A DNA stretch of 35,530 bases from assembly GCA_019510095.1 (NCBI GenBank), contig JAEKLB010000028.1, positions 1-35,530 of the forward strand, read 5' to 3'. Source of the DNA: Acidobacteriota bacterium (GTDB taxonomy: Bacteria > Actinomycetota > Acidimicrobiia > Acidimicrobiales > CADCSY01). The notes beneath the pieces are model-generated. The model was not told the DNA's origin and ran no database searches. It saw only the letters and a list, made by a program, of their open reading frames with translations. Of this stretch, positions 19,312-29,460 are shown one piece after another. The first letter of the stretch is position 1, and each line of letters starts with the position of its first letter. The position numbers were made by a program, and so were the translations under genes.

Positions 19312-20373
19312 TCAGCCCGCCTCGAGCTGGCGCTGCCGCTCGTCCTGGAGCAGGGCGCCGACCAGATCGTCCAGCTCGCCGGCCAACACCTTGTCGAGGT
19401 TGTAGGCGGTGTAGCCGATGCGATGGTCGGTGACCCGGTTCTCCTTGAAGTTGTAGGTGCGGATCTTCTCCGACCGCCCGCCACCACCGGTCTGGGCCCG
19501 CCGCTGGCCCGACAGCTCGGCGGCCTGGCGGTCCTGCTCGAGCTTGAGCAGCCGGGCCCGGAGCACGACGAGGGCCTTGGCCCGGTTCTGGATCTGGCTC
19601 TTCTCGTCCTGCATGGCCACCACCAACCCGGTCGGCTTGTGGGTGACCCGCACCGCCGAGTCGGTGGTGTTGACGCTCTGCCCACCCGGGCCGCTCGAGC
19701 GGTAGACGTCGATCTGGAGCTCGTTGGGATCGATCGACACCTCCACCTCCTCGGCCTCGGGAAGAACGGTCACGGTCGCCGACGACGTGTGGATGCGGCC
19801 CTGGCTCTCCGTCACCGGCACCCGCTGCACGCGGTGCGGGCCGCCCTCGTGCTTCATGTGGCTCCACGCGCTGGCGCCCCGCAGGGTGAAGGTCACCGAG
19901 TCGAGCCCACCCATGTCGCTGTTCGACGACTCCATCACCTCGAGCCGCCAGCCCTGGCGACCGGCGTAGGCGAGGTACATGTCGTAGAGGTCCTTGGCGA
20001 AGAGGTTGGCCTCCTCGCCACCCTCGGCCCCGCGGATCTCGACGATGACGTTGCGGCCGTCGTTGGGGTCCTTGGGCAGCAGGAGCAGCTTGAGCTCCTC
20101 ATCCAGCCGGGCGATGGTGGCCTCGGCCCCGGCGATCTCGGCCCGCAGCACCTCACGGTCGTCACCGGTGGCGCCCTCGCTCATCTCCCGGGCAGCGGCC
20201 AGATCATCCGACGCCTGGCGGTGGGCCCGGACTGCAGCCACGATCGGCTCCAGCTCCTTGTGGCGGCGAGTCAGGGCGACGTACGCAGTGTTGTCCGAGA
20301 AGACGTCAGGGTCGGAGAGGCGGGCTTCGAGCGCCCGGAACTCCTCCTCCAGCGCCTCGAGACGGTCGAACAC
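19312..20373 (-). CDS. prfA: Peptide chain release factor 1
   Basis: Recognises UAA/UAG stop codons and triggers peptide release. The 353-residue protein has the N-terminal coiled domain, the PxT codon-recognition motif (PVT, 186-188, within RVPVTESQGRIHTS), and the GGQ motif at 230-232 in RSSGPGGQSVN. Length is normal for RF1. The GTG start at 20373 gives the conserved start FDRLEALEEEF. Upstream in-frame residues look random, and an ATG two bases away is out of frame. Its Gln is the substrate of the adjacent PrmC. Confidence 0.96.
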   Translation of the reverse strand: MFDRLEALEEEFRALEARLSDPDVFSDNTAYVALTRRHKELEPIVAAVRAHRQASDDLAAAREMSEGATGDDREVLRAEIAGAEATIARLDEELKLLLLPKDPNDGRNVIVEIRGAEGGEEANLFAKDLYDMYLAYAGRQGWRLEVMESSNSDMGGLDSVTFTLRGASAWSHMKHEGGPHRVQRVPVTESQGRIHTSSATVTVLPEAEEVEVSIDPNELQIDVYRSSGPGGQSVNTTDSAVRVTHKPTGLVVAMQDEKSQIQNRAKALVVLRARLLKLEQDRQAAELSGQRRAQTGGGGRSEKIRTYNFKENRVTDHRIGYTAYNLDKVLAGELDDLVGALLQDERQRQLEAG

Positions 20374-20392
20374 ATGTCGAATGTACGAGGGG

Positions 20393-21346
20393 TCAGGCGA
20401 TGCCGACGACCCCGGCCGGCTCCGCCAGCATCCCGGCCAACGCCAGCGTGACCGGATGACGGTCACGCTGAGGCACCGCCAGCACGAGGCGGGCACCCCC
20501 GGCCGGGAACGCGGCAAGCCGGCTGTCGGCTGCCGCCGGCACCAGGTCGAGGTCGACGCCAACCGAGCACACCACGACCACCGGGCGACCGTCGGGGTCG
20601 AGGCCGGTTGCCGGCGCCGGCCACGGCGTGCGGAGGTCGGGCGCCTCGACCACGAGCGCCATCGGCACCAGATGGTCGACGCCCACCAGGCCCGGCGCGC
20701 GCACCAGTTGGGCGCGGAGCCGGCGGGCCGCGGCCAACAGGTTCAGCGGATGGTGGCCCTCGCCGCCGCCGGTCCGGTGACGGCGGACCAGCTCGACGAC
20801 CTGGCGGAGGGTGGCGTCCGTCGGCTGGCCGGCCGAGAGGAGCGCGTGTGCTTCGCGGTCGAAGCGACCGACGCCGACCTCCAGGCGGGGCTCCCCGTCG
20901 AGGATCGTGACCCGGGCAACCTCGAGGCCCTCGACCTCGCCGATCAGGCGACCGTGCTCGACCACCGGGTCGGCGCCGGCCGCGGTGAGCACGTCGGCAA
21001 ACGGCGCAGTCCGGGGATCGAGCGGCGGCGGGACCGGAAGCGGTTCCGCGCCGGCGGCAACGAGCCTGGCGCCCTCGACGACCCAGACCGTCGGCACCAC
21101 GCGGAACTGCGAGGCCCGCCGGGCGAGCAGCCCGCCGGCGCCGTCGACCACGAGATGCAGCGGCTCGTCGGGGGCGACCTGGCGGGCCAGGGCAAGGGCG
21201 GGACCGAGGGCCCGTTGGGGCTCGACGTCGGCCAGCACCCAGAGGCCGTCCGGCCCGACGAGGCCGGCGCCGCCGTGGAACGCGACAGACCGCCGGTCAG
21301 CCTGACCGGCGGTCGTCTGGACCAGCGTCGTGAGCTTGGCGGCCAG
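20393..21346 (-). CDS. Unknown protein between rpmE and prfA, start not resolved
   Basis: An open frame of coding character ends at 20393 and runs up to the end of rpmE. Its translation is Ala/Val/Leu-rich with plausible secondary structure (SVAFHGGAGLVGPDGLWVLADVEP, EPLHLVVDGAGGLLAR, LVPMALVVEAPDLRTPW, GRPVVVVCSVGVDLDL), no signal peptide and no known motif. No ATG, GTG or TTG exists between the rpmE stop and a GTG at 21238. A CTG at 21346 is taken here as a tentative start because the protein-like sequence begins before 21238. A hidden frameshift or a noncanonical start are alternatives. The position in the conserved rho-rpmE-prfA cluster suggests a translation-related or housekeeping role, but none can be claimed. 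Confidence 0.55.
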   Translation of the reverse strand: MAAKLTTLVQTTAGQADRRSVAFHGGAGLVGPDGLWVLADVEPQRALGPALALARQVAPDEPLHLVVDGAGGLLARRASQFRVVPTVWVVEGARLVAAGAEPLPVPPPLDPRTAPFADVLTAAGADPVVEHGRLIGEVEGLEVARVTILDGEPRLEVGVGRFDREAHALLSAGQPTDATLRQVVELVRRHRTGGGEGHHPLNLLAAARRLRAQLVRAPGLVGVDHLVPMALVVEAPDLRTPWPAPATGLDPDGRPVVVVCSVGVDLDLVPAAADSRLAAFPAGGARLVLAVPQRDRHPVTLALAGMLAEPAGVVGIA

Positions 21347-21603: not shown

Positions 21604-23346
21604 CTAGGCGCCGCTGCCGGTCTTGGCGGCTTCGGCGAGGAACTCTTCGTTGGACTTGTACTGGCGGAGGCCGTCGAGCAGGCGCTCGAGTGCGGCACCC
21701 GGGGAGGCGCCGTCGGCCGACAGGGCGTTGAGCGCCCGCCGCACCCGCCACACCTGCTGGAGCTGCTTCCGGTCGAAGAGCAGCTCTTCGTGCCTGGTCG
21801 ACGAGCCGTCGACGTCGATCGCGGGGTAGACCCGGCGCTCGGCAAGGCGGCGGTCGAGCCGGAGCTCCATGTTGCCGGTGCCCTTGAACTCCTCGAAGAT
21901 CACCTCGTCCATGCGCGACCCGGTCTCGACAAGGGCGGTGGCGAGGATGGTGAGCGACCCGCCCTCTTCGATGTTGCGGGCTGCCCCGAAGAACTTCTTG
22001 GGCGGGTAGAGGGCGCCGGTGTCGATGCCGCCGGACATGATCCGGCCGGTGGCCGGTGCGGCCAGGTTGTAGGCCCGGGCCAGGCGGGTGATGCCGTCGA
22101 GGACGATCACCACGTCCTTGCCCTCCTCGACCAGCCGCTTGGCCCGGTCGATCACCAGCTCGGCGAGCTGGGTGTGCTCATCGGCGGGCCGGTCGAAGGT
22201 GGAGGCGATGACCTCACCCTGGGTCGACCGCCGCATGTCGGTGACCTCCTCGGGGCGCTCGTCGACGAGCAGCACCATGAGGTGGACCTCAGGGTTGTTG
22301 CGCTCGATCGACTGCACGATGTGCTTGAGGACCGTGGTCTTGCCTGCCTTCGGCGGCGAGACGATCAGGCCGCGCTGACCCTTGCCGATCGGCGAGATGA
22401 GATCGACGATGCGCGCCGTCATGTCGGCGGTGGGCGCCCCCGGCGTCTCCAGGCGCAGCTTCTCGTCGGGGAACAGCGGCGTGAGGTCCTCGAACTTGGG
22501 CCGGGCCCGGGCGACCTCCGGGTCGCGACCGTTGACCACGTCGATGCGCAGCAGCGCCGGGTTCTTCTCGTTGCGGTTGGCCGGGCGGCTGGCGCCGGCG
22601 AGGTGGTCGCCCTTGCGCAGGCCGAACTGGCGTACCTGCTTGACCGAGACGTAGACGTCGTCCTTGCTCGGCAGATAGCCCTTGGTGCGGAGGAACCCGT
22701 AGCCCTCGTCGCGGAGGTCGAGCAGACCGGCGACGGCGATGGGCTCACCGGTGAACGGCTCCTCGGGGCGGTCGCGCTCGCCGCCCTGGCGGTCGTTGCC
22801 GCCGCGCTCGTTGCCCGGGCGGTCGTTGCCCGGGCGGTCGTTGCCAGAGCGGTCGTTTCCGGCGCGATCGTTGCCGGGGCGATCGCCGCCCGGCCGGTCA
22901 CGGTCGCGTCCCCGGCGGCGGCGGCCTCGCCGGTTGCCCGGATCGCCGTCGTCGTCACGCCAGCCCGGCTGCTCGCGATCGCGTGATCGGTCGCCGTCGT
23001 CGCTGGCCACCGCGTTGGTGGCCCCGGCCGGTGCCTCGGCCGCCTCCGCGGGCGAGCCGTTGGTCGCCGGGACGAGGGCCTCCTCGTCGGCCAGGAGATC
23101 GGCGATGGCCTCATCGATCACCGCCGGCTTGGCCGAGCGCACGACACGGGTCGGCGCTGGCGCCTCGGCCGCCGTGTCGCCGTTGGGCGAGCCGGTGGTG
23201 ATGCCCGCGGTCGTGAGGATGAGATCGACGAGATCGGCCTTCTTCGCCCGAGCAGTGGGCTTGGCGCCCAGAGCCTTGGCGATGGTCTGCAGCTCGTCCC
23301 GCTCTTTTCGCTCGAGCACGGATCGCTCGAGGACGGGATCACTCAT
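21604..23346 (-). CDS. rho: Transcription termination factor Rho with a disordered Gly-Asn-Asp-Arg insertion
   Basis: Hexameric RNA helicase that ends transcription. The 580-residue protein has a Rho_N-type start ([34 protein letters not shown], residues 11-44) and a long acidic then Arg-rich disordered region to about 195. The RNA-binding cold-shock-like domain ([33 protein letters not shown]) follows, then the ATPase with PPKAGKTT (331-338) and [11 protein letters not shown]. Residues 153-192 consist of eight five-residue units of the GNDRx type. Actinobacterial Rho proteins commonly carry such insertions. A purine-rich GGAGAGGA lies nine bases before the ATG. The gene starts after a 154-base leader. 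Confidence 0.97.
22771..22890 (-). repeat. 15-base tandem repeats inside rho
   Basis: Eight consecutive 15-base units, each coding for Gly-(Asn/Gly)-(Asp/Glu)-Arg-x, form an uninterrupted in-frame array. The fourth and fifth units (both PGNDR type) are almost identical at the DNA level. The array lies in the disordered N-terminal region of Rho, where length variation by slippage would be tolerated. Confidence 0.85.
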
Positions 23347-24254: not shown

Positions 24255-24821
24255 ATGGACGCACACGAGGTGTTGATGGCCGACCACAACCGGGTACGCG
24301 GGCTGTTCAAGCGGTTCCACGCAGCCGAGAAGGGCGACGACCGCGCCACCATGGGCCAGCTCGCCGACAAGATGGCGAAGGAGCTCGAGATCCACACGGC
24401 GATCGAGGAGGAGATCTACTACCCGGCCGTGAGCGACCTCTCCGAAGAGGTCCACGACCTGGTCGCCGAGGGGCTGCAGGAGCACCATGTCGCCAAGGAG
24501 CTCATCTCCGAGCTCGGCGCGGTCGAGCGCGACAGCGAGCAGTGGGTCGCCAAGGTGAAGGTCCTCATCGAGGCGATCGAGCACCACGCCGGTGAAGAGG
24601 AGACGGAGATGTTCCCGGGCGTGAAGCGGGTGATGTCCGACGACGACCTCACCACGCTCGGCAACCGACTGATGGATCGCAAGCGCCAGCTCGGCGCACC
24701 GGAGCCGCTCATCGACCTCACCAAGGAGGAGCTGCTCGCCAAGGCTCGCCAGCAGGAGATCCCCGGTCGCTCGAAGATGTCGCGCCAGGAGCTGGCCCTG
24801 ACCGTCGACCCTCGCGGCTGA
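24255..24821 (+). CDS. Hemerythrin-like protein with a Rho-N-like C-terminal tail
   Basis: A 188-residue cytoplasmic protein. Residues 1-125 form a hemerythrin HHE four-helix bundle with candidate iron ligands H11, H47, E51, H77/H78, H110/H111 and E115. Such proteins bind O2, NO or store iron in stress responses. The last 35 residues (DLTKEELLAKARQQEIPGRSKMSRQELAL) resemble the Rho_N/SAP-like helix-extended-helix motif (pattern ELxxxAkxxxIxGrSkmxkxEL). A similar motif occurs at the start of the neighbouring Rho. It diverges from the rhomboid gene with only 31 bases between starts, so the promoters must overlap. It ends at a large inverted repeat. Confidence 0.88.
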   Translation: MDAHEVLMADHNRVRGLFKRFHAAEKGDDRATMGQLADKMAKELEIHTAIEEEIYYPAVSDLSEEVHDLVAEGLQEHHVAKELISELGAVERDSEQWVAKVKVLIEAIEHHAGEEETEMFPGVKRVMSDDDLTTLGNRLMDRKRQLGAPEPLIDLTKEELLAKARQQEIPGRSKMSRQELALTVDPRG

Positions 24822-24828
24822 CGGATCC

Positions 24829-24877
24829 GTTCCTTGGCGACTCGTGGCCGGTACGGCCCCACGAGTCGCCAAAGAAC
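24829..24877. terminator. Long inverted repeat between convergent genes (copy 3 of the GTTCTTTG-tipped family)
   Basis: Arms GTTCCTTGGCGACTCGTGG (24829-24847) and CCACGAGTCGCCAAAGAAC (24859-24877) pair over 19 positions with one G-T-type exception, around an 11-base loop with its own small CCG/CGG pairing. It sits eight bases after the hemerythrin stop and a few bases before the stop of the facing gene, as expected for a bidirectional terminator. The arm tip matches those at 3469-3521 and 18438-18488. Confidence 0.7.
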
Positions 24878-25313: not shown

Positions 25314-26474
25314 TCAGGCCCGACCGACGAGGCGGCCCATGAGCGAGTGCCCGGGCACCGGCGGGATGCCGGCGACGCCGGACTCGGAGTACGAGCCTCC
25401 GGGGCCGTCGTGCGCGCTGTCGACCAGCAGCCACGGCACCGGATCGGGCGTGTGGGTCTTCAGTCGCAGCGGCGTCGCGTGGTCGGGCAACAGCAGGAGC
25501 CGCCACGGCCCGATGGCGTCGAGGCCGTCGACCAGCGGCGCAAGGATGCGACGGTCCCAGTTCTCCAGGGCGGCGACCTTCTCGCCAACGTCGCCGGCAT
25601 GGCCGGCTTCGTCGCTGGCCTCGACGTGGATGACGAAGAGGTCGGTGTCGCCGGTCAGCGCCGCCAACGCCGCGTCGCGCTTGCCCTCGTAGTTGGTGTC
25701 GTACCAGCCGGTCGCGCCCGGCACCTCGACCACGTCGATGTCGGTGAGGACGCCGAGGCCGCGCACGAGGTCAACCGCCGTGCACAGCCCGGCATGGAGC
25801 CCGTAGGCATCGCGGAACGATGTCATGTGCGGCTGCGGGCCCTGGCCCCACAGCCAGACCTGGTTCGCCTTCAGGCCGAACCTCGGGACGATGTCACGAC
25901 TGGCGTCCATGACCGCCTGCAGCTTCTGGGCCGACGGGCCAGCCGGCCACACCGCCGGCTTGTCGGAGAGATCGTGCGGGGGGGTGCAGTCGGCGTCGCC
26001 CCAGCTGTCGGGGGCGACCACGATGTGGCGGTACTGCACGCCGGGATGGAACGAGATCTCCTCGGTGCCGAGCTCGGACTGCAGCGCCTCGATGACCGCG
26101 CTGGCCTCCTCCGTCGACGGGTGGCCCCCGGCGAAGTCGAGCATGGTGCCGTCGTCACCGACGGTCACCAGGTTGCAGCGGTAGGCGACCTGGTCGGGGC
26201 GGATCTTCAGGCCGAGGGCCGCCGCCTCGATCGGCGCCCGACCGGTGTGGTAGCGGGCCGGGTCGTAGCCGAGGATCGCCATGTTGCCGACGTCGCTGCC
26301 CGGTGGCATCCCCGGGGGGATCACCGCAGCCCGGCCGACCTCACCCCGCCGCGCCAAGGCGGCGAACGTCGGCAGGTCCGCCGCCTCCAACGGCGTGCGC
26401 CCGCCCAGCTCGTCGACGGGCTCGTCGGCGCAGCCGTCGGGGACGCACACGACGTACTTCATGGCGGGGCTCAC
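25314..26474 (-). CDS. ApgM-family protein in the thrB position, candidate homoserine kinase
   Basis: A 386-residue member of the alkaline phosphatase superfamily, branch of archaeal-type 2,3-bisphosphoglycerate-independent phosphoglycerate mutases. Landmarks are VPDGCADEP (metal-binding D13), PPGSDVGNMAILGYDP with the nucleophile Ser60, HVEASDEAGHAGD and LLPDHATP (metal ligands). The start GTG at 26474 overlaps the thrC stop in GTGA. An alternative ATG lies at 26462. Related actinobacteria have the homoserine kinase gene thrB here, and no GHMP-type ThrB exists in the window. From memory, a subfamily of this ApgM group (TIGR02535) was proposed as an alternative homoserine kinase because of the same context. 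A phosphoglycerate mutase role cannot be excluded. Confidence 0.85.
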   Translation of the reverse strand: MSPAMKYVVCVPDGCADEPVDELGGRTPLEAADLPTFAALARRGEVGRAAVIPPGMPPGSDVGNMAILGYDPARYHTGRAPIEAAALGLKIRPDQVAYRCNLVTVGDDGTMLDFAGGHPSTEEASAVIEALQSELGTEEISFHPGVQYRHIVVAPDSWGDADCTPPHDLSDKPAVWPAGPSAQKLQAVMDASRDIVPRFGLKANQVWLWGQGPQPHMTSFRDAYGLHAGLCTAVDLVRGLGVLTDIDVVEVPGATGWYDTNYEGKRDAALAALTGDTDLFVIHVEASDEAGHAGDVGEKVAALENWDRRILAPLVDGLDAIGPWRLLLLPDHATPLRLKTHTPDPVPWLLVDSAHDGPGGSYSESGVAGIPPVPGHSLMGRLVGRA

Positions 26475-27862
26475 CCCTCCATTCTGGACGAGGAGGCAAC
26501 GTGAGCCTCCACCGCCGCCAGATCGTTGGCGACCACCTCGTACCGCTCCGGCCGTTCGAACAGGTCGCCGAGGAAGTCGGGAAGCTCGGGCCGGATGCCG
26601 ATGGCCTCCTCGACGGCGTCGGGGAACTTGGCCGGATGGGCGGTGGCTAGCGAGACGATCGGTGTCGCCGGGTCATGATGGAGGAGGCCGGCGGCGCCGA
26701 GGCCGACCGCGGTGTGCGGGTCGACGATCCTGCCGGTGCGCTCATAGGTGGCAGCGATGACGCGGAGCACCGCATCGTCATCGATGCGGGCAGCGTCGAA
26801 GATCTCCCGCGCCATCCCCAGCCGGCTCTCCCCCATGTCGACGGTGCCGTCGGCGCGGAACCGGGTCATGAGATGAGTGACGACTGCGCCGTTCCTCCCG
26901 CAGAGCTCGAAGAGCAGGCGCTCGAAGTTCGACGACACCTGGATGTCCATGCTCGGGCTCGAGGTGGGCGTGACGCCGTGCATCGCCATCACCCCGCTCT
27001 CGAAGAAACGGGGAAGGATGTCGTTGCGGTTCGAGCCGATGACGAGCCGGCGGATCGGGACGCCCATCTGGCGGGCCGCCCAGCCGGCGAAGATGTTGCC
27101 GAAGTTGCCGGTCGGGACCGAGAACGCCACCGGGCCACCGAGCTGGGCGGCCGCCTTCACGTAGTAGACGGTCTGAGCGAGGATGCGGGCCCAGTTGATC
27201 GAGTTCACCGCAGACAGGTGGAACCGGTCGCGGAAGGGAAGGTCGTTGAACATGGCCTTCACCAGGTCCTGGCAGTCGTCGAAGGTGCCCTCGACCGCCA
27301 GGTTGTGCACGTTCGGCGACAGCACCGTCGTCATCTGCCGCCGCTGCACCTCTGACACCCGCTCGTGGGGATGGAGGATGCAGATGTCGATCGGCTCCCG
27401 GTCGCGGCACGCCTCGATGGCGGCCGAGCCGGTGTCACCCGACGTGGCCCCGACGATCGTGACCCGCTCGCCCCGCTTGAGCAGCTCGTGCTCGAACAGG
27501 TGGCCGACGAGCTGGAGGGCGACGTCCTTGAACGCAAGCGTCGGGCCGTGGAACAGCTCGAGCAGCCACACGCCGCCACCCAGCTCGACGAGCGGCACCA
27601 CGTCGGGGTGGCGGAACGACCGGTAGGCGTCCTCCACCAGCTCGACGAAGATGCCCTCGTCGATGGCGCCCTCGACGAACGGCCACATCACCTCGACCGC
27701 CACCTCGGCGTACCGCATGTCGGCGAACGCCCGCAGCCGGCTGGGCGTGATGGTGGGCCACGACTCCGGGAGGTAGAGGCCACCGTCGCGAGCCAGCCCG
27801 GTGAGGAGGACGTCGTCGAACGGGAGCACCGGCGCGGTGCCCCGAGTGCTGACGTACTTCAC
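26471..27862 (-). CDS. thrC: Threonine synthase, long form
   Basis: Converts O-phosphohomoserine to threonine with PLP. The 463-residue protein begins MKYVSTRG..., with the PLP Lys K112 in GPTLAFKDVALQ, the phosphate loop SGDTGSAAIEA and the NSINWARILAQTVYY box. This is the longer class found in proteobacteria and yeast (about 430-510 residues), not the about 360-residue mycobacterial class. The start is a GTG one base after the hom stop. The end overlaps the ApgM-like gene, which would supply its substrate if that gene is a homoserine kinase. Confidence 0.96.
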   Translation of the reverse strand: MKYVSTRGTAPVLPFDDVLLTGLARDGGLYLPESWPTITPSRLRAFADMRYAEVAVEVMWPFVEGAIDEGIFVELVEDAYRSFRHPDVVPLVELGGGVWLLELFHGPTLAFKDVALQLVGHLFEHELLKRGERVTIVGATSGDTGSAAIEACRDREPIDICILHPHERVSEVQRRQMTTVLSPNVHNLAVEGTFDDCQDLVKAMFNDLPFRDRFHLSAVNSINWARILAQTVYYVKAAAQLGGPVAFSVPTGNFGNIFAGWAARQMGVPIRRLVIGSNRNDILPRFFESGVMAMHGVTPTSSPSMDIQVSSNFERLLFELCGRNGAVVTHLMTRFRADGTVDMGESRLGMAREIFDAARIDDDAVLRVIAATYERTGRIVDPHTAVGLGAAGLLHHDPATPIVSLATAHPAKFPDAVEEAIGIRPELPDFLGDLFERPERYEVVANDLAAVEAHVASSSRMEG

Positions 27863-27863
27863 C

Positions 27864-29147
27864 TCACGCGCCGATCACGCGCAGCATGGAGGTGACCCGG
27901 TCGACCACGTCGAGCTCGCGCAGGTCGCGCAGCGTCGCCTGCATGGCCGACTCCTGCGCCTCGTGGGTGATGAACACCAGGCGGGCCTCGTCACCCAACC
28001 CCTCCTGCTCCATCGAGCGAATCGAGACACCGTGCTCGGCGAACACGCCCGACACCGAGTGGAGCACGCCGGGCCGATCGACCACGTCGATGTTGAGGTA
28101 GTACTCCGACCGGACCTCGTCGATGGGGCGGATGGCAGCACGGGGGAACGCACCGAGGTTCGCCGACGTGCCCCGCCGCCGGTTGGCAGCAGCGTCGATC
28201 AGATCACCGAGGACGGCGCTGGCGGTGGGCGCGCCGCCCGCACCCCGCCCGTAGAACATGAGCTGGCCGACGGCGTCACCCTCGACGAACACCGCGTTGA
28301 ACGAGTCGCGCACGGTGGCGAGGGGATGGGTCTTGGGGAGCATGGCCGGATGGACCCGAACGGCGACCCGCCCGTCGTCGTCACGCTCGGCGATGGCGAG
28401 CAGCTTCACCTCGTAGCCGAGCCGATGGGCGAAGTCGATGTCGTCGGCCGTCATGCCGGAGATGCCTTCGTGGTACACGTCGCCGGCGACCACCGACACG
28501 CCGAAGGCGATGGTGGCGATGATGGCGACCTTGGCCCCGGCGTCGTAGCCCTCGACATCGGCGGTGGGGTCGCGCTCGGCGTAGCCCAGGTTCTGGGCCT
28601 CGGCCAGCGCGTCGGCGTAGCCGGCACCCTCCTCGCTCATGCGGGTGAGGATGTAGTTGGTCGTCCCGTTGACGATGCCCATCACCCGGCGCAGGGGCTC
28701 GCCGACGAGCGACTCGCGCAGGGGCCGGATGAGTGGGATGCCGCCGGCCACCGCGGCCTCGAACAGAAGGTCCACGCCGGACGCCCCGGCCGCCTCGAAC
28801 AGGTCGACGCCCATGTTGGCGAGCAACTCCTTGTTGGCGGTGACCACCGGCTTGCCCGACTTGATGGCGTCGAGCAGCAGGGTCCGGGCCGGCTCGATGC
28901 CGCCGATGACCTCGACCACGACATCGATGTCAGGGTCGGCGACCAGGCCGGCGCTGTCGTGGGTCAGGGCACCCGCCGGCAGCGGCACGCCTCGGGCCTT
29001 CTCGAGGTTGCGCACCGCCACCCGGGTGATCTCCAGCCGGAGGCCGGTGCGAGCGGCGATGGCGTCCCGCTGCCGGTCGAGGAGGTCGACGAGGGCCGCG
29101 CCAACGTTCCCGCAGCCCAACAGACCGACCCGCACCAGCTCGCTCAC
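27864..29147 (-). CDS. hom: Homoserine dehydrogenase with a C-terminal ACT domain
   Basis: Reduces aspartate semialdehyde to homoserine. The 427-residue product has the NAD(P)-binding GCGNVG (11-16), the catalytic TANKELLA segment, GTTNYILTRM, and the substrate region PTADVEGYDAGAKVAI. The last 80 residues (YYLNIDVVDRPGVLHSVSGVFAEHGVSI ...) form an ACT domain, expected to mediate threonine feedback. GTG 29147 gives the standard N-terminus. Upstream in-frame residues (back to 29225) lack family character. Confidence 0.96.
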   Translation of the reverse strand: MSELVRVGLLGCGNVGAALVDLLDRQRDAIAARTGLRLEITRVAVRNLEKARGVPLPAGALTHDSAGLVADPDIDVVVEVIGGIEPARTLLLDAIKSGKPVVTANKELLANMGVDLFEAAGASGVDLLFEAAVAGGIPLIRPLRESLVGEPLRRVMGIVNGTTNYILTRMSEEGAGYADALAEAQNLGYAERDPTADVEGYDAGAKVAIIATIAFGVSVVAGDVYHEGISGMTADDIDFAHRLGYEVKLLAIAERDDDGRVAVRVHPAMLPKTHPLATVRDSFNAVFVEGDAVGQLMFYGRGAGGAPTASAVLGDLIDAAANRRRGTSANLGAFPRAAIRPIDEVRSEYYLNIDVVDRPGVLHSVSGVFAEHGVSIRSMEQEGLGDEARLVFITHEAQESAMQATLRDLRELDVVDRVTSMLRVIGA

Positions 29148-29199
29148 GGCAGCGGAGGCTACCGGGAGGGCTTTGGGCCCCTGGCGCAGTTCGTGGCTC

Positions 29200-29460
29200 T
29201 CACTCCGAGCGTTCGCGACTCTCACGCATTGCTTCCCGCACTCGGGCCCGCCGGGCCCGTGCGGCCTCCGCTCGCTCGTCGGTCACCGCGAAGGCCGCGC
29301 TCTGGCGGGCACCGCCCACCGCCAACACGACCAGGATGCTGGCGATGGCGGCCCCGGTCACCAGTCCGGCGACCAGGCTCCCGGTGAGGGCGTCGACCAA
29401 CCATCCGAGGAACGTCCCCGACGCAAGGCCGACGCCCCCAACCGCGTACCACCGACCCAC
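29200..29460 (-). CDS. Small two-helix membrane protein between lysA and hom
   Basis: An 86-residue protein from the GTG at 29460, which overlaps the lysA stop in TAGTG. A GTG at 29478 is possible. Two hydrophobic segments (VGGVGLASGTFLGWLVDAL and VAGLVTGAAIASILVVLAVG) are followed by a highly charged Arg/Glu helix (ERAEAARARRARVREAMRESRER), so a membrane anchor with a cytoplasmic tail is likely. No family is recognised. Its place inside the lysine/threonine block suggests co-transcription only. Confidence 0.65.
   Translation of the reverse strand: MGRWYAVGGVGLASGTFLGWLVDALTGSLVAGLVTGAAIASILVVLAVGGARQSAAFAVTDERAEAARARRARVREAMRESRERSE

Follow-up and report, generated by a model that had tools for sequence, protein, structure and literature searches.

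An ApgM-like protein in the threonine operon of Acidimicrobiia as a proposed homoserine phosphotransferase

Proteins of the ThrB and ThrH families give O-phosphohomoserine, and ThrH is also able to act as a phosphoserine phosphatase. ThrB (TIGR00191) is an ATP-dependent GHMP protein, whereas ThrH (TIGR02137) is a phosphoserine:homoserine phosphotransferase of the HAD fold; both are unrelated in fold to the protein described here. The biochemistry of ThrH has been shown for Pseudomonas (discussed in PMC1079889), and DvMF_0971 in Desulfovibrio is a shikimate-kinase-like homoserine kinase (PMC5764234). A further candidate is the protein type covered by TIGR02535, to which BT2402 of Bacteroides thetaiotaomicron belongs. 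Growth in minimal medium without added threonine depends on BT2402 (GapMind, PMC7311316), but an E. coli thrB mutant was not rescued by it. Those authors leave the question open and report that, according to a suggestion of the TIGRFAM curators, the donor for TIGR02535 could be a compound like PEP (PMC7311316). A survey of gut genomes named the TIGR02535-type protein ThrB2 on context evidence (PMC9026213), and such a protein has been noted to retain the zinc sites but not the calcium site (PMC9765024). Our literature search for homoserine kinases in Acidimicrobiia found only PMC5764234, and no paper linking ThrB2 or TIGR02535 with this class. The homoserine role of ThrB2 is already published as a proposal, unproven in vitro; the present work extends it to a new branch in the actinobacteria, where the context evidence is stronger, and adds a three-way displacement in one operon slot, the presence of GpmA and a residue signature.

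The threonine operon and the slot behind thrC

In the window (the whole stretch of 35,530 nucleotides that was analysed), which comes from an uncultured actinobacterium of the class Acidimicrobiia, lysA, hom, thrC and a gene for an ApgM-like protein form a head-to-tail set on the minus strand, with rho and prfA further downstream:

25314..26474, minus strand: ApgM-like protein, a proposed ThrB2-type homoserine phosphotransferase of 386 aa, or 382 aa if translation starts at the ATG at 26462
26471..27862, minus strand: thrC, threonine synthase of the long type with Thr_synth_N (PF14821); TIGR00260 255.7 bits, above cut-off
27864..29225, minus strand: hom, homoserine dehydrogenase with ACT domain; PRK06349 543 bits
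29460..30731, minus strand: lysA, diaminopimelate decarboxylase; TIGR01048 429 bits; upstream end of the order lysA-hom-thrC-X-rho-prfA
21604..23346, minus strand: rho, downstream marker of the slot
19312..20562, minus strand: prfA, which marks the conserved order further downstream

An earlier note on this DNA had described hom and thrC as adjacent and intact, with an ApgM-type gene behind thrC at the usual actinobacterial place of thrB, and the positions of the reading frames and their HMM families bear out both statements. Whether the ApgM-like gene overlaps the thrC stop by four bases, as the note also described, turns on the start codon: it does so with the GTG at 26474, and with the ATG at 26462 there is an 8-base gap. 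Aligned homologues begin at this ATG (MKYV...), twelve bases past the GTG, and a GGAGG lies ~13 nt from it and nearly overlies the GTG; under either start codon the two genes are tightly spaced. Between the ApgM-like gene and rho/prfA lie genes for a DUF6941 protein and a rhomboid protein and an unassigned ORF. The otherwise minus-strand stretch up to rho also carries a plus-strand gene (24255-24821) for a hemerythrin-HHE protein with a Rho_N-like tail; the minus-strand ORF that overlaps it (24422-24862) matches nothing in Pfam and is likely to be spurious.

The arrangement lysA-hom-thrC-X-rho-prfA is found repeatedly among relatives in the Acidimicrobiia. Of the 80 named loci that encode a protein closely related to the ApgM-like one, 71 have thrC upstream in the same orientation, mostly as the direct neighbour; three of the remaining loci end at a contig edge and six are without a long-type thrC there. 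Downstream, rho was found in 59 of the 65 named loci with enough flank. We rejected a tie between the ApgM-like gene and the long type of ThrC, since genomes of families f59, f67 and f56 carry the gene behind a short ThrC.

The slot behind thrC in this class holds one of three unrelated proteins: ThrB, ThrH or the ApgM-like protein. In genome G044 it is occupied by a GHMP ThrB (TIGR00191 135.6 bits, GHMP domains) that overlaps thrC by one base, and in genome G026 by a ThrH (TIGR02137 242 bits, cut-off 223; PRK13582 259 bits, cut-off 133), encoded on the minus strand at L085:3758-4357 and starting two bases past the thrC stop. Since this ThrH sits behind thrC and its genome gave no ThrB match, a homoserine role is favoured there; an Ilumatobacter ThrH has been read as a SerB substitute (PMC3910706). 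In Acidimicrobiia, distances among the ApgM-like proteins correlate with the thrC distances (r 0.89) and the hom distances (r 0.82), as suits a gene that has long been part of the operon and not one recently acquired. No relatives of the protein were found in a viral contig collection. Acidimicrobiia-type threonine operons also turned up in public MAG records under other names, namely L168, L170, L175 and L182 (titled Bifidobacterium breve), L154 and L163 (Acidobacteria) and L166 (Thermoanaerobacterales), and these records are probably mislabelled.

Known and candidate homoserine-phosphorylating enzymes in the source genome and the class

The source genome comprises 2.95 Mb in 227 contigs and is 97.3% complete. 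GHMP ThrB (TIGR00191) gave no match in the window or the whole genome, in a search that works, as all 14 control genomes gave matches. In the whole genome, the APH-type thrB_alt (TIGR00938) reached only 19 bits and ThrH (TIGR02137) gave no match. The absence of thrB that the earlier note had read from the operon thus extends to the genome. Incomplete assembly is an unreasonable explanation, because the family's 11 other genomes all lack ThrB and ThrH, and 10 of them carry the ApgM-like gene, the exception (G010) being 71% complete. A search for another phosphoglycerate mutase, which the earlier note had proposed, found a canonical GpmA elsewhere in the genome, on contig C18 (TIGR01258 363 bits; PRK14120 370 bits, cut-off 366), so glycolysis has no need of the ApgM-like protein.

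We then counted the three types more widely, calling a protein ApgM-like when it scored over 300 bits with TIGR02535. In 59 relatives, the ApgM-like protein was found in 20, ThrB in 29 and ThrH in 9, with none of the three in 5, and only one genome (G035, fragmented) combined the ApgM-like protein with another type (Fisher p 5e-10, or 4e-6 when each family is counted once). Among 247 genomes sampled from the class, the respective numbers were 66, 132 and 28, with ThrB present in 12 of the 66 and ThrH in none (p 1e-13, a value that still includes shared ancestry). The ApgM-like protein and ThrB/ThrH therefore mostly exclude each other, and the displacement of ThrB reaches beyond the source genome, being general across much of the Acidimicrobiia. 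Strict exclusion of ThrB was rejected in view of the twelve genomes, mostly of family f61, that hold both. Their GHMP gene scores 93-168 bits with TIGR00191, lies near ilvC or other genes and not in the slot, and is probably a real though divergent ThrB. Redundancy of this kind, between ThrB and ThrH, is known in Pseudomonas. These twelve genomes count against the proposal made below.

Four of the relatives (G028, G040, G041 and G053) carry thrC and gave no match to ThrB, ThrH or the ApgM-like protein, as did 53 of the 247 genomes in the class sample as regards the three types; the four have either a further homoserine-phosphorylating enzyme or plain incompleteness.

A different reading is that some other unrecognised enzyme, such as a shikimate-kinase-like or APH-type kinase, makes O-phosphohomoserine, with the ApgM-like protein in an accessory role as an O-phosphohomoserine phosphatase or a regulator. 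This agrees with the failed complementation by BT2402 (PMC7311316), with the nine APH-fold stretches in the source genome and with the 5 of 59 relatives that have none of the three types, so that a further enzyme may exist. An accessory factor, however, is not expected to swap with ThrB and ThrH in the slot, and the thrB_alt score in the source genome is very low; we regard this reading as unlikely.

Family scores, residue signature and phylogeny

TIGR02535, which the earlier note had named as a proposed homoserine kinase subgroup, is a real model that TIGRFAM calls 'proposed homoserine kinase'. Scoring against this model and true ApgM, also proposed there, gave the window protein 431 bits with TIGR02535, far above its 231 and 159 bits on true ApgM models. 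This score is 15 bits under the TIGR02535 cut-off of 446.3, which also counts against the proposal. Class relatives in genomes G069, G096, G063 and G221 exceed this cut-off, and the proteins of L250, L251 and L252, checked among such relatives, share slot and clade with the window protein. The latter also scores 407 bits with TIGR00306 and 438.5 bits with NF003242/PRK04200, above the cut-off of 426. Since PRK04200 also takes in Bacteroidales ThrB2 proteins (583-584 bits), its mutase name is no evidence of mutase activity. Within the class, TIGR02535 scores are bimodal, with slot proteins at 380-498 bits (a few truncated ones lower) and a second group at 157-179 bits, of which three proteins from relatives exceed the PRK04135 and TIGR00306 cut-offs. 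Genomes G035 and G039 hold a slot protein plus a separate true ApgM. The AlphaFold2 model of the window protein (mean pLDDT 95.5, pTM 0.91) matched best, among PDB structures, 2zkt of Pyrococcus horikoshii (TM 0.81, 25% identity), followed by 3idd and 3kd8.

Residues were compared among 22 slot proteins, three Bacteroidales proteins, archaeal, Macrococcus and in-class true ApgM, and 2zkt/3kd8, with numbers counted from the GTG start. The key positions in the window are:

26295..26297, minus strand: Ser60, predicted phosphorylated nucleophile in PGSDVGN, invariant in the 22 slot proteins and 2zkt/3kd8
26121..26138, minus strand: DFAGGH (113-118), which replaces the mutase DRRAGR, its arginines lost
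25848..25850, minus strand: Trp209, Arg in every true ApgM compared
25620..25622, minus strand: Glu285, Lys in every true ApgM compared, three residues before the metal ligand Asp288

We take Ser60 to be the nucleophile by homology to phosphoglycerate mutases. The window protein shares with the ApgM mutases (TIGR00306, PRK04024, PRK04135; 2zkt, 3kd8) the fold, the two-metal ligands and the nucleophilic serine that mark true ApgM; D13, S60, D288, H292, D331, H332 and H341, which make up metal site and nucleophile, are kept in 22/22 slot proteins, as are R99, R149 and K299. It differs from them in having DFAGGH, W209 and E285 where true ApgM has DRRAGR and basic residues at 209 and 285, and is 31-33% identical to in-class ApgM. 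The DRRAGR arginines, R209 and K285 are replaced in all 22 slot proteins, H148 is changed to Y and D165 to P, and further fixed changes lie at 62, 207, 235, 289 and 330. Within DFAGGH, F114 and H118 are fixed, and 115 and 116 vary.

Ten diagnostic residues (V62, H118, Y148, P165, W207, W209, D235, E285, E289 and P330) are common to the slot proteins and the three Bacteroidales proteins, which are ~40% identical to the window protein. One comes from B. finegoldii and one from P. distasonis, both encoded in thrA-apgM-thrC operons; the third is from a Phocaeicola record that lacks annotation. At these positions the mutase residues are found in true ApgM from archaea, from Macrococcus and from the class itself. 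In a maximum-likelihood tree, slot and Bacteroidales proteins split from true ApgM with 100/100 support, the inner order on the ApgM side being unsure on account of long branches. The window protein thus has the marks of the ThrB2 clade: a clade shared with Bacteroidales thr-operon proteins, linkage to hom and thrC, and absence of thrB. It differs from Bacteroidales ThrB2 in its motif (DFAGGH versus NHSSGH), its score below the TIGR02535 cut-off and its gene order (hom-thrC-X-rho versus thrA-X-thrC).

Some true ApgM proteins showed deviations of their own. The in-class PRK04135-type proteins (L106:6889-8085, L115:3114-4391, L116:4460-5656) have Glu at the position of the metal ligand His292 (GTDSTGEDGD), and their metal site or activity may be different. 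An ApgM on the Macrococcus plasmid p19Msa1099-1 (L257:3998-5230) has Thr for the nucleophilic Ser (PVGTDMG); it adjoins a DASS anion symporter and a LysR regulator and is perhaps part of an organic-acid uptake cassette.

That the window protein is an ordinary phosphoglycerate mutase sitting by chance in the threonine operon, as its NCBI name ('cofactor-independent phosphoglycerate mutase'), its PRK04200 score, its 2zkt- and 3kd8-like fold and its kept catalytic residues could imply, is very improbable given the GpmA of the source genome, the basic residues replaced throughout the slot proteins, the swapping with ThrB or ThrH and not with mutases, and the two genomes that hold a separate true ApgM.

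Proposed reaction and its meaning

Our combined findings suggest, with a probability of about 0.8, that the ApgM-like protein takes the place of ThrB and supplies the neighbouring ThrC with O-phosphohomoserine, most likely by ping-pong transfer via S60, as a homoserine phosphotransferase of the ThrB2/TIGR02535 clade. The earlier note's interpretation that an ApgM-type protein supplies the thrB function is supported by the lack of thrB elsewhere and the presence of GpmA. Where the note has the enzyme act as a kinase, the chemistry is probably wrong: transfer by way of a phosphorylated enzyme serine is likelier than use of ATP. Cofactor-independent phosphoglycerate mutases carry phosphate on serine, and transfer via S60 is the likeliest route because the two-metal centre and nucleophile of the archaeal enzymes are kept. 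Phosphate would pass from a donor to S60 and on to the homoserine hydroxyl, in a reaction that is probably ATP-independent and that ThrC, by removing the phosphate, would pull forward. Candidate donors are phosphoserine, PEP or phosphoglycerate.

Homoserine, or another zwitterion of its kind, is a plausible acceptor, since the machinery is intact while fixed basic residues are replaced by glutamate, tryptophan, phenylalanine and histidine. E285 is a candidate binder of the homoserine amino group; its predicted place in the pocket, like those of W209 and H118, comes from sequence comparison. An amino-acid phosphoester of the O-phosphoserine type would be an attractive donor, as in ThrH, because donor and acceptor would take turns in one pocket. 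We tentatively raise the possibility of an ATP-free reaction in which such a donor (e.g., O-phosphoserine), a remade pocket (E285, W209, H118) and phospho-S60 phosphorylate homoserine; the ApgM fold might then have converged on the ThrH reaction, tying serine to threonine synthesis. If the proposal is right, the likeness to ThrH would lie in the passage of phosphate from a metabolite via the enzyme to homoserine, and that to GHMP ThrB in the presumed product, in addition to the slot that each occupies in one of the relatives.

Homoserine kinase is among the commonest predicted gaps in amino-acid pathways, with low confidence in 29/148 prototrophs (PMC7311316). As NCBI names such proteins phosphoglycerate mutases, many genomes are probably misread as missing a threonine step and having an extra glycolytic enzyme. 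The Acidimicrobiia provide a natural experiment, with three unrelated enzymes in one slot and a short list of residues that separates the candidate from true mutases.
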